DNA of 64,000 nt from Flexilinea sp. (GTDB lineage: Bacteria > Chloroflexota > Anaerolineae > Anaerolineales > Anaerolineaceae): the NCBI GenBank assembly GCA_026645735.1, contig JAPKMT010000002.1, positions 1 through 64,000 of the forward strand. The letters run 5' to 3'. Shown here one piece after another: positions 4,264 through 51,310 of the stretch (position 1 is the first letter of the stretch; the number at the start of each line of letters is the position of its first letter). The notes under the pieces were generated by a model. It ran no database searches. It was not told where the DNA came from and worked only from the letters and a program-made list of their open reading frames with translations. The translations under genes were made by a program, and so were the position numbers.

Positions 4264-5532
4264 TTATTTCTCCATAATTTTTGTTTTTTTAAATCCAGTA
4301 ATAATATGTCCATCTTTAATAACCATTTCAATATTGTCTTTGTCCTGAAGAACTTTTATATCTTGAATGGGGTCTTTTCGAAGGACAACCAAATCCGCTA
4401 ATAATCCTTCCTTAATATCTCCAGCACAATCACCCATGCCCACATTTTCCGCAGCCAGTTTTGTTGCGGAAAGCAGAGCCAGCTTATTCGATAATCCGGC
4501 TCGTGTTAAAGCTTCCATTTCATATGCGACACCGCCATGTGGAACATAAGGCATTCCAGCATCAGAACCGGTTGATATTTTTACACCTATCGAAGAAGCC
4601 CTTTGAACTTCGTCATACATAATGCTTCGCAGATTGTCCAGCCAGGCTTGACTCATAGAAGATCTTCCAGGTACTTTTGCAGGAGATCGAAACTCTGGAG
4701 AAAGGGTTGGCGTCAAATAAGTTCCTTTTGCTGCCATTTTTTCGAACTGTTTGTCAGTGTAGAAACGACCATGTTCCAAGGAGTCAATTCCAGCCTCAAT
4801 CGCGTTATCAACCGCTTCACCACCATGGCTATGCCCAACGACTTTCCTCATGTTAAGATGGGCAAAATCACAAATAGCATGCAACATCGCTTCTGTCATT
4901 TCAGGAGCGTACGTCTTGTTAAAATGTCTTACGGGTTCGCTGTAGGAGACGTTGATCTTTATGACATCCGATCCGTCCAGTATACATTGACGCACTGCTT
5001 TAACGGCTTCTTCCGGTGTATCAGCAATAACACCCATATTTGCAATGGAATCATATGGAATGTTGTTACGAATATAGCGGGATCCGTCCATATGCCCGGC
5101 AGTTGTTGTTATTGCGTGTCCCCCGGCAATGATTCGAGAACCAATAAACAAGCCTGCATTAATCACATCGCGAGCACAAATATCAGCGAAATCCCGTGAC
5201 CCGACGTCTCGGACGGTTGTGACGCCATTCAGCAGGCTTTTTTGAGCATTTTCTAGCGCTTGTAAACTCAGGTCACCAGGTTGTGTCGTAACAGGGTCAA
5301 GCGCCCAGGATTCATCAGGGCGGCCTTGATGGGATAAGTGAACGTGTGTATCAATAAGTCCGGGTATAACAATGCTATTTCGAAATTTTGCAATCACACT
5401 ACCACTATTGGGTTCCCAATCAAGATCGTTATATACGATCGTTTGGATTCTTTCATTTTCAATCTCAATCCAAACATCCTTTTTCACTTCCCCATCGATG
5501 AACGCTTTTCCTGTATAAAACCATTTACTCAT
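4264..5532 (-). CDS. Metal-dependent amidohydrolase (imidazolonepropionase/prolidase-like)
   Basis: DTHVHL, IKINVS, GHSHGG, EHGRF and GSDAGMP metal-ligand motifs. Confidence 0.85.
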   Translation of the reverse strand: MSKWFYTGKAFIDGEVKKDVWIEIENERIQTIVYNDLDWEPNSGSVIAKFRNSIVIPGLIDTHVHLSHQGRPDESWALDPVTTQPGDLSLQALENAQKSLLNGVTTVRDVGSRDFADICARDVINAGLFIGSRIIAGGHAITTTAGHMDGSRYIRNNIPYDSIANMGVIADTPEEAVKAVRQCILDGSDVIKINVSYSEPVRHFNKTYAPEMTEAMLHAICDFAHLNMRKVVGHSHGGEAVDNAIEAGIDSLEHGRFYTDKQFEKMAAKGTYLTPTLSPEFRSPAKVPGRSSMSQAWLDNLRSIMYDEVQRASSIGVKISTGSDAGMPYVPHGGVAYEMEALTRAGLSNKLALLSATKLAAENVGMGDCAGDIKEGLLADLVVLRKDPIQDIKVLQDKDNIEMVIKDGHIITGFKKTKIMEK

Positions 5533-17361: not shown

Positions 17362-17405
17362 TTAGAGTATTTTGTAATAAATTGTACGGCGTATCTTTTT
17401 CAAGT

Positions 17406-17441
17406 AGCGATTCGAAATACAAACATGTGTTTCGAATCGCT
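17406..17441 (+). other. Perfect 12-bp stem-loop upstream of the signal-less SBP gene
   Basis: AGCGATTCGAAA-(12 nt)-TTTCGAATCGCT. Confidence 0.6.
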
Positions 17442-17493
17442 GTGTTTCAAGACGTCGACTTTTTTATAGATTATAATGATCTCAAGGTGCTTG

Positions 17494-46806: not shown

Positions 46807-46870
46807 ACAAGACGTTACGAGTTAGCAATTCAAAATATAGACCATGCGTTACAAATAGAGAGAGGAAATA

Positions 46871-46917
46871 AGTTGTTGTGGTGTATTTGCGCGAAGCGCA
46901 AATACACCACAACAACT
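46871..46917. repeat. 47-bp perfect palindrome (22-bp stem, 3-nt loop), element A
   Basis: AGTTGTTGTGGTGTATTTGCGC-GAA-GCGCAAATACACCACAACAACT. Confidence 0.95.
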
Positions 46918-46964
46918 ATTATTTTTTTCCATATTTCGAATCGTTGATTGCAAGGCAATGAATC

Positions 46965-48178: not shown

Positions 48179-49546
48179 TTACTTAATAATGTTGTTCGTT
48201 TTTCCACCGCGATATTCGCTGACATCTTCCGTTCCCTTGCCTTTATAAAGGCTTGGAACAGCCGCATATAATGCTGCGCAAGAAACCAGATCCTGCTTCC
48301 AGGTAATTTCGTTCGGGGCATGAGCCTGAGATTCTGCACCCGGACCAAATCCAACACAGGGGATCCCATACCGTCCCTGAATGGAAACGCCATTGGTAGA
48401 GAATGTCCACTTGTCAATCAGCGGACGCTTGCGCAGGTGCATCGTTTTTTCATCACCAATGCGCTCTTCACCGAACAGCTTCTTATGGGCATCTACTAAC
48501 GCCTGAACATGAGGGGCGTTTTCCCGGTTGATCCAGGTCGGAAAATAACATTCAGTTTTATAAACCAATCCAGTCCAAGCCGGACGATCATACATGTACA
48601 TGGATACTTTTACATCATCGCCATATTTTTTACAGGCTGGTAACTGACGGATTTCATCCAGACAATAATCCCATGTTTCACCGGCAGTCATCCGACGGTC
48701 AATCGAAATCGAGCAGGAATCCGCTACTGCGCAGCGAGACGGAGAGGTGTAAAAAATTTCCGAAACAGTGCAGGTACCACGTCCAAGGAATCGGGCATCT
48801 TCATAATGATCGGGATTGTATTTCGGGTTGAGCATCTTTGCCAGGCCTTTGATTTCATTCCCATCCGCGTCATCATTTTCATTCAATGACCGAATATTTT
48901 GAAGGATATCCGCCATTTTATAAATGGCATTGTCACCACGCTCCGGAGCAGAACCATGACAGGACACTCCGCGAACATCCACACGGATTTCCATGCGTCC
49001 GCGATGTCCGCGATAAATGCCGCCATCCGTCGGTTCAGTGGAAATGACAAATTCAGGAGTGATTTTGTCCTCATTATGTATGAACTGCCAGCATAAACCG
49101 TCACAGTCCTCTTCCTGAACCGTTCCGGCAACCAGAATCTTTGTATCGGCAGGAATTAAATTCAGCTCTTTCATGATCTTCGCGCCGTACACGGATGAGA
49201 CGATACCGCCTTCCTGGTCAGAACCGCCGCGTCCGCCGATTTCTGTTTCCGATTCAAACCCCTTATAAGGATCAAATTTCCAGTTGTCAATGTTACCGAT
49301 TCCAACTGTGTCGATATGGCTATCATAAGCGATAATCTTATCGCCCTTTCCCATCCAGCCGAGTACATTTCCTTCCGGATCAATCTCGACTTTGTCGAAT
49401 CCGACTTTTTCCATTTCCAACGCAATACGCCGAATAACACCTTCCTCATTCGCACTCTCGCTGGGAATTGCTATCAGATCGCGTAAGAATCTGGTCATAT
49501 CAGCTTCGTAACTTTTCGCAGCCTTTTTAATCGCTTCAAAGTCCAT
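48179..49546 (-). CDS. ygeY: YgeY-family selenium-metabolism-linked M20 hydrolase
   Basis: M20 motifs [30 protein letters not shown]; adjacent to ygeW. Confidence 0.85.
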
Positions 49547-49984
49547 GTCAAATCCTCCTGTTTTTTACATGAAGATTGTTCTTGATGTGCTATATCACAC
49601 AGCTATCAAAATCAATTGTCATACAACTTGAAATTATAACAAAAATGTTTGAATTTACAAGAAAACTCACGCAGTATTTGGCATTCCATATTTCGGTCAG
49701 TTGCGCATCCAATATCGGGACAAATCTGCTTTTCAATTCCTGTTTTCAAAATCATTCCTATGTTTAAGTAAAGGAATGAATCATTGAAATTTTCCATACA
49801 AAAAATATTGTCTGCATTATCCAATGTCCTGAATGAAAATTTTTGTTACCATTTATGGGAGAAACCTATTTTTCAATCTCTGTCAAAATTAGGACCAGCT
49901 TGTGAAATGAAGTGAAGTACCTTCCCGTATTTTTCAATATTGTGCTCTGATTAACCAGTAATTCAAAATATGAAAAGAATTCTA

Positions 49985-50031
49985 TGTTGTTCTTATGGTT
50001 TTGCGCTACGCGCAAAACCATAAGAACAACA
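49985..50031. repeat. 47-bp perfect palindrome (22-bp stem, 3-nt loop), element B
   Basis: TGTTGTTCTTATGGTTTTGCGC-TAC-GCGCAAAACCATAAGAACAACA. Confidence 0.95.
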
Positions 50032-50142
50032 AATTTTCTTGATTGATTCGAAAAGCCAATCCATATTGCGAATTGCTGCTGATCAACGAAATTAAAATAA
50101 AGATACAATCATAAATAGAAAAAAGATTGGCAGGAGAAAAAA

Positions 50143-51216
50143 ATGAATAGGAAAGTCTGGATCATAATCTTTGTTGTTTTTTGTTCCTTATTCCAAACCA
50201 TGTATGTTTTTGCAGGTTCGGAGAATCCGCTCCTCAAGGTGGAAGGGAAGTCACTTGATACCGAGGCAATCATTGAAAATGGAGCGCCTAAATTACCCCT
50301 GGAAGCAGTCACTGCGGCACTTGGTTTCAGCATCGATGCATCAAATCAGGACCAGCTCATCATCACGACAACCGATGGCAAAATTATTAAGATCAGTCTC
50401 TCAGATGCGAAGGTTTCCAAAAAAGACCATGAATATTATTTAAACGAGATTCCCGCATTAATTAACGGCATGCATTATTTGAATGTCGATTTTTATTCTG
50501 ATACGATGAACTTGCGGGTTTATTGGGATCAATCGGATAACACTGTAAAGATTGGAAAGATCAAAGAAAATGAAATTGAAATAAATACCATCCAATATTC
50601 TTTTGAAACCGATATTCTTAAAGTGACCGTTCAATATCCGGTTGTTGAAGGTTTGGAAGATCAGAGTATTCAAGATCAAATCAATAATACATTTAAACAA
50701 CTGGCGGATCTGGCAATTCAGGAAGGTGAGAAAAATGCAAAAGAATTGGCTTCCTACACCAAAGATTTTCCAGAAATGCCCAGACATTGTGAGACGTATT
50801 TCAATTATCAGATCAAGTACAATCAGAATGGTCTGCTAAGTCTTATCTTTTTAAATTACCAGTTTGCAGGTGGTGCTCACGGCGGAACAATCCAAACTGC
50901 ATTCACCTTTGATCTGAAATCTGGTGAACTATTCAAACTGCAGGAATTTTTTAAAGAGAACACAGATTACCTGACAATTTTCAACCATCAGATCGAGAGC
51001 GACTTAACGCGAAGAGGACTATTATCGCTGCTATTTGAACCTTTTGCAGGTATGAAACAGAGTCAGCCTTTTTACCTCTCCAGAAACGGATTTGTCATTT
51101 TCTATCAGCAATATGAAATTCTCCCTTATTCTGCGGGAATCCAGGAATTTTTGATCGATTTCAATCAATTGGAAGGCATCCTAAAAGAAACGAATATGGG
51201 GATAACGAACGAATAG
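50143..51216 (+). CDS. Secreted protein with copper-amine-oxidase-N-like domain and DUF3298/RsiV-like C-terminal domain
   Basis: Signal peptide; LPLEAVTAALGFSIDAS; NYQFAGGAHGG and FVIFYQQYEILPYSAGI signatures. Confidence 0.75.
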   Translation: MNRKVWIIIFVVFCSLFQTMYVFAGSENPLLKVEGKSLDTEAIIENGAPKLPLEAVTAALGFSIDASNQDQLIITTTDGKIIKISLSDAKVSKKDHEYYLNEIPALINGMHYLNVDFYSDTMNLRVYWDQSDNTVKIGKIKENEIEINTIQYSFETDILKVTVQYPVVEGLEDQSIQDQINNTFKQLADLAIQEGEKNAKELASYTKDFPEMPRHCETYFNYQIKYNQNGLLSLIFLNYQFAGGAHGGTIQTAFTFDLKSGELFKLQEFFKENTDYLTIFNHQIESDLTRRGLLSLLFEPFAGMKQSQPFYLSRNGFVIFYQQYEILPYSAGIQEFLIDFNQLEGILKETNMGITNE

Positions 51217-51267: not shown

Positions 51268-51310
51268 TTCGAATCAATCGAGAAAATTTGATGTTCTCGA
51301 TTGATTCGAA
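51268..51310. terminator. Bidirectional stem-loop terminator between convergent genes
   Basis: TTCGAATCAATCGAGAA-(9 nt)-TTCTCGATTGATTCGAA, perfect 17-bp stem between 51216 stop and 51323 stop; U-richness weak. Confidence 0.6.

Follow-up and report, generated by a model that had tools for sequence, protein, structure and literature searches.

A 47-bp perfect palindrome in a Flexilinea genome is very probably the interior of an abundant MITE mobilised in trans

The window analysed here, a 64,000-nucleotide stretch of a Flexilinea MAG (Anaerolineaceae; 3.35 Mb, 86 contigs, 92% complete), carries two long palindromes, A and B, and the second raises the question of what kind of element it belongs to and how its arms have come to match. 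Palindrome B, TGTTGTTCTTATGGTTTTGCGC-TAC-GCGCAAAACCATAAGAACAACA, occupies positions 49985-50031 and consists of 47 bp with a perfect 22-bp stem and a 3-nt loop, TAC, which reads GTA on the minus strand. This is as described in an earlier note on this DNA, and palindrome A (46871-46917) has the identical geometry that was also claimed for it. No other perfect hairpin in the window comes close to these two in length, the runner-up having 17 bp, and the chance of a perfect 22-bp stem within 64 kb would be ~1e-9. None of the Rfam covariance models matched anywhere in the window. The gene coordinates agree with the placement of palindrome B between two divergent genes:

48179-49546, minus strand: ygeY-like gene
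50143-51216, plus strand: DUF3298-type gene

A scan of the genome and its relatives, as the earlier note had proposed, revealed further members: the family is dispersed, and its members share their ends but vary in a core that stays paired. The hairpin tip TTTGCGCNNNGCGCAAA has 162 exact copies in the 3.35-Mb genome (reversed control, 0), exact TIRs number 137+120 (control, 0), and hairpin elements occur roughly once in 10 kb. Counts made on individual copies rest on 0.79 Mb of sequence from the window's own genome and ~2 Mb from Flexilinea flocculi. Among 60 relatives, several tips were present in three genomes of the same genus (52, 30 and 7) and 0-1 in the others; the match in relative G008 (locus L039) was inspected and is unlike the element. 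In a scan of named genomes, the element was found in F. flocculi TC1 and one Anaerolineaceae MAG.

When 48 copies were compared, the conserved sequence was found to extend past the hairpin on both sides, and 45 copies have 18-bp TIRs, CAGYRATTCGAAATATGG, at both ends, with a typical element length of 123 bp. The palindrome, which had been taken for the whole element, is thus only its interior, as the TIRs and a 9-bp target duplication lie outside the hairpin. The family members in the window are as follows:

49956-50078, plus strand: element B, a full-length MITE of 123 bp with the short-arm (AATATGAAAAGAATTCTATG) side first; TIR pair and length as in the 45 aligned elements
49947-49955: left target-site duplication (TSD) of element B, CTGATTAAC
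50079-50087: right TSD of element B, CTGATCAAC, 8/9 identical to the left
49956-49973, plus strand: left TIR of element B, CAGTAATTCAAAATATGA
50061-50078, minus strand: right TIR of element B, minus-strand reading CAGCAATTCGCAATATGG
49985-50031: central palindrome of element B, 22-bp stem, loop TAC, CTTATGGT subfamily
46823-46946, minus strand: element A, same MITE family, 124 bp, GTG-type subfamily, plus-strand loop GAA, orientation opposite to B
46871-46917: palindrome of element A
17405-17442: minimal relative of 38 bp, two TIRs that face each other across 2 bp; TSD TTTTTCAAG/TGTTTCAAG, 8/9

Element B contains no ORF of at least 100 aa, and as DNA it folds as a whole at -35.7 kcal/mol (z -9.75). 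The flanks of element A, GTTACGAGT/ATTGCAAGG, match at 5/9 positions only, which suggests that this copy is old or rearranged. The minimal relative exemplifies shorter forms (38-75 bp) in the Flexilinea genome with the same ends and duplications. A near-perfect 20-bp hairpin, TTCGAATCAATCGAGAAAATTTGATGTTCTCGATTGATTCGAA, is located just beyond the DUF3298-type gene at 51268-51310; given the similarity of its arm to the MITE's long-arm side (TTTTCTTGATTGATTCGAA), it is possibly a terminator derived from the MITE.

In the first set of elements, the 9-bp flanks are exact in 10/45, with an identity of 60% versus 27% at the 2-bp control. Among 79 elements of ~123 bp, a set picked solely by TIRs and an ungapped stem, 42 have flanks that agree at >=7/9 positions, and the only sequence motif in the TSDs is a weak AT bias. 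Comparison with element-free orthologous regions, suggested in the earlier note, showed that relatives carry a single copy of the target. L060, with 94% identical flanks, reads through the target of L031:14315-14438 with one target copy and a gap of -8. Further empty sites are L092:14005 versus L141 (gap -9), L085:7075 versus L128 and L089:4856 versus L046 (gap -10 in each) and L097:17391 versus L106. L060 itself (JAAYUI010000101.1) is filed as a Caldisericales MAG; it is probably mis-binned, since over 3.5 kb it shares 93-94% identity with the Flexilinea genome of the window and contains a copy of the element.

The two window copies, with identical ends and a variable paired interior, resemble what would be expected of a barcode or recombination-site array (attC-like, a DNA uptake site or a phase-variation site). 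However, the cores form two subfamilies, and the insertions are isolated and single, with TSDs and empty sites that refute such an array; we regard it as almost certainly wrong. Two arm types prevail, GTTGTTGTGTTGTTTTTGCGC and GTTGTTCTTATGGTTTTGCGC, with variants, and a third genome has its own arm version, GTTGTTCTTTTATTTTTGCGC. Most copies belong to the GTGTTGTT- or CTTATGGT-type subfamily, so the idea that the 8-bp core differs at every locus in a barcode-like manner does not hold.

A REP/BIME-type element, for which the mobilising enzyme would be a Y1 transposase (RAYT, IS200/IS605) that acts on hairpins in single-stranded DNA, would likewise be intergenic, palindromic and of high copy number with a GNA-type triloop, and GTAG-type REPs have been reported from Chloroflexi (PMC3733652). 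However, no match to Y1_Tnp (PF01797) was detected in the genome, controls being positive, and the foot of the palindrome lacks a GTAG/CGTC tag. Y1 elements make no target duplication. The TIRs and 9-bp duplications outside the hairpin refute a REP/RAYT identity, the probability of which we consider negligible, and a DDE insertion sequence with the same ends accounts for the element.

This insertion sequence is present as a single copy of 1.6 kb in F. flocculi TC1 (L078:821-2452). It includes an ORF for a 446-aa DDE transposase and is bounded by the family TIRs, CAGCAATTCGAAATATGA and CAGTAATTCGAAAAATGA, and by an exact 9-bp TSD, GCATTCTGT. This transposase was found neither in the window's own assembly (92% complete) nor in 12 of 13 other genomes of the genus. 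Homologues, 28-38% identical over the alignment, were found in another Anaerolineaceae genus, in another Chloroflexota family and on cyanobacterial plasmids; one more, L211, was found by tblastn and lies outside that alignment. Four of the homologues have CAGCAATTC-type ends and an exact 9-bp TSD (L200, GGAATATAT; L210, GAAATATAC; L211, GGCAACGAC; L208, ATGTCGAGA); in the Gloeothece homologue, ends and duplication were looked for and not found. D128 and D216 are invariant in the aligned transposases, and RWxIE is present in 4/5, with RWKID in the fifth. The proteins match DDE_Tnp_1 weakly. For the F. flocculi enzyme, Pfam searches gave DDE_Tnp_1_assoc (PF13808) and DDE_Tnp_1 (PF01609) at 20.6 and 19.2 bits, both below cut-off, and NCBIfam gave no match; the label is therefore limited to ISAs1-like/ISNCY. 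Two members match an IS4 model under its cut-off, one homologue is annotated ISNCY by PGAP, and a PDB profile search returned nothing meaningful. The IS1634-type transposase genes in L076/L077 were rejected as a partner, there being no family TIRs around the gene. Beside the IS1634-type gene in F. flocculi, at L076 1-685, lies a long tandem-repeat coding stretch (NVNQRF.VVDKFADD repeats). Apart from the TIRs, the MITE interior has no match to the L078 insertion sequence, and the MITE is hence not a simple deletion derivative.

The element is thus short and non-coding, with TIRs and a fixed 9-bp TSD, is dispersed with empty sites, and shares its ends with a transposase-bearing insertion sequence. 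The ends, TSDs, empty sites and matching-ended insertion sequence in F. flocculi suggest mobilisation in trans. We consider it very probable that the palindrome forms the interior of a MITE which depends on an IS4-clan transposase, and that its hairpin is rewritten by template switching. The DDE transposase of a full-length insertion sequence with CAGCAATTCGAAATATG ends would have bound the short TIRs of the MITE and moved the 123-bp element, by cut-and-paste or by copying, to intergenic sites rich in AT, with a 9-bp duplication per insertion. During or after copying, template switches from one arm to the other would rewrite the central hairpin: the arms would be homogenised (matched double changes), the loop inverted and, occasionally, the whole hairpin deleted. 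An L078-type transposase would have moved the copies in the window's own genome. The element is explicable without any host function.

Some insertions are common to this genome and F. flocculi, which points to activity of the family both before their split and since; at most well-anchored sites, the insertion is not common to the two. The ygeW-ygeY-DUF3298 order is also found in F. flocculi, where identity is 89-90% and neither the A nor the B site holds a palindrome. The ygeW-ygeY genes therefore did not move with the elements, and the flanking of the pair by A and B is a coincidence of element density. The A site in F. flocculi was rejected as a clean empty site because it holds 52 bp of other sequence. 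The B site is occupied by a relative that lacks the hairpin and is flanked by a separate duplication, GATAATTCA; this relative could be a hairpin-deleted ortholog or an independent insertion. At two other loci, L016:16225 versus L120 and L033:2782 versus L113, the identity with F. flocculi is 99-100% amid surroundings of ~82-95%, as if sequence had recently been exchanged.

Strong folding and covarying arms would also be expected of hairpins kept paired by host selection, as bidirectional terminators, mRNA stabilisers or protein-binding sites. Coding calls cover about 87% of the bases, and only 11/89 elements overlap an ORF, some of these ORFs being short. The placement of the copies relative to genes argues against host selection: tandem, divergent and convergent neighbours (46/18/10) track the share of intergenic bases (57/28/15%), hence there is no preference for gene ends. 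The stem is not followed by a U tract, and a terminator role was rejected as there is no orientation bias. Moreover, stem mismatches climb from 3% to 13% as the TSDs decay, which shows that resident hairpins do decay with age; the insertions at most well-anchored sites are, as noted, not common to F. flocculi, and the hairpin has been deleted recurrently (L019:5913, L085:3308 and possibly F. flocculi site B). Host selection is accordingly a very unlikely explanation for the family, but single copies could have been co-opted by the host.

The suggestion that the arms evolve as pairs, possibly via hairpin copying, is supported by matched changes and inverted loops, the footprints expected of it. 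Within copies, the arms pair in 1536/1584 cells, whereas an exchange of right arms among members of a subfamily leaves 1374 paired (sd 6). Near the common arms, compensated double changes number 63 versus 34 mismatches, and in copies with perfect duplications 19 versus 6. Only six pairs of orthologous insertions were examined, one of which is identical; four show 11 compensated doubles, as compared with 2.2 expected if the arms changed independently. At L017:2847 versus L121 of F. flocculi, where the flanks are 99% identical, one arm differs from its counterpart in such a way that it matches the other arm. The triloop occurs in both orientations relative to the fixed flanks, with GAA 13/TTC 15, GGA 9/TCC 7 and AAA 6/TTT 12 in the window's own genome and GAA 28/TTC 31 in F. 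flocculi, and in 71/76 copies it is purine-N-A on one strand. Template switching yields arm homogenisation and spacer inversion, GAA<->TTC included (PMC8604942), and is able to maintain hairpins (PMC8794818). From arm pairing, orthologous compensated doubles and loop inversion, we infer template switching as the mechanism.

Selection could also produce paired changes if these arose solely in source elements, among which a perfect hairpin would be favoured during transposition, with template switching playing no part in resident copies. As this would predict, there are several paired arm types that at least two copies have in common. However, paired changes also distinguish orthologous insertions that stayed put, including the arm difference at L017:2847, and a 50:50 inversion of the loop is not predicted by selection for pairing. 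Source-element selection is hence the less likely course of events, albeit one to be taken seriously, and template switching is preferred.

The hypervariability of the loop between paralogues outpaces what inversion alone explains. When closely related copies are compared, the difference is 0.49-0.78 in the loop columns, versus 0.09 elsewhere and 0.04 in the stem. The closest independent paralogue pairs (mean 90.7% identity elsewhere) keep the triloop in 1/14 cases, with ~10 expected at the flank rate, and orthologous resident pairs in 3/5 (L016, L017a and L097 the same; L018 and L017b different). On the basis of this difference it is proposed, as a rather doubtful possibility, that copying of the element entails a rewriting of its hairpin tip, by transposition-linked opening and refilling or by a template switch. 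If so, the loop sequence would be a mark of transposition events. Stem mismatches are most frequent in the CpG-rich tip (GCGC/GCGC), where positions 1, 2 and 4 are affected in 15, 13 and 15 of 79 elements, as expected from cytosine deamination.

In size class (70-300 bp), lack of coding capacity, TIRs and target duplication, the element resembles known bacterial MITEs such as RUP, NEMIS/Correia, ERIC, Nezha and Chunjie (PMC10969869, PMC3733652). These are likewise intergenic and of high copy number, with a long-stem fold and ends common to a transposase-bearing element. It differs from them in its own TIR (CAGYRATTCGAAATATGG) and 9-bp duplication, and in an interior made up of a 47-bp perfect palindrome with coevolving arms and a hypervariable triloop. 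The ISNCY/ISAs1-like IS4-clan insertion sequences (F. flocculi; Calothrix, Anabaena, Gloeothece) share CAGCAATTC termini and the 9-bp duplication with the MITE, neither of which was found for the Gloeothece copy, but are 1.4-1.9 kb long with a ~440-aa DDE transposase and an unrelated interior. Template-switched inverted repeats (PMC8604942, PMC8794818) show the same arm homogenisation, loop inversion and GAA<->TTC swap, whereas the Flexilinea element is a single mobile element in ~200 dispersed copies, the loop of which changes far faster than the remainder between paralogues. The MITE family is likely new, as a search of the open-access literature found no description of the element in Flexilinea.

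Chloroflexota gain a well-defined, very abundant MITE, for which a probable source transposase can be named, and ISNCY, a transposase group that has been poorly classified, is linked to fixed CAGCAATTC ends and a 9-bp duplication across phyla. Hundreds of similar hairpins, aged by TSD decay, form a natural experiment on the upkeep of palindrome pairing, in which a single genome suffices for counting events of arm homogenisation, loop inversion, loop turnover and deletion.

Two further arrangements were observed in F. flocculi. The element at L113:3952-4053, the counterpart of L032:9502, is chimaeric, combining a CTTATGG-type left arm with a GTG-type right arm. In L067, at 4480-4800, successive MITEs almost abut, separated by copies of a single target (xGTAATTTC), which suggests repeated insertion at one spot.
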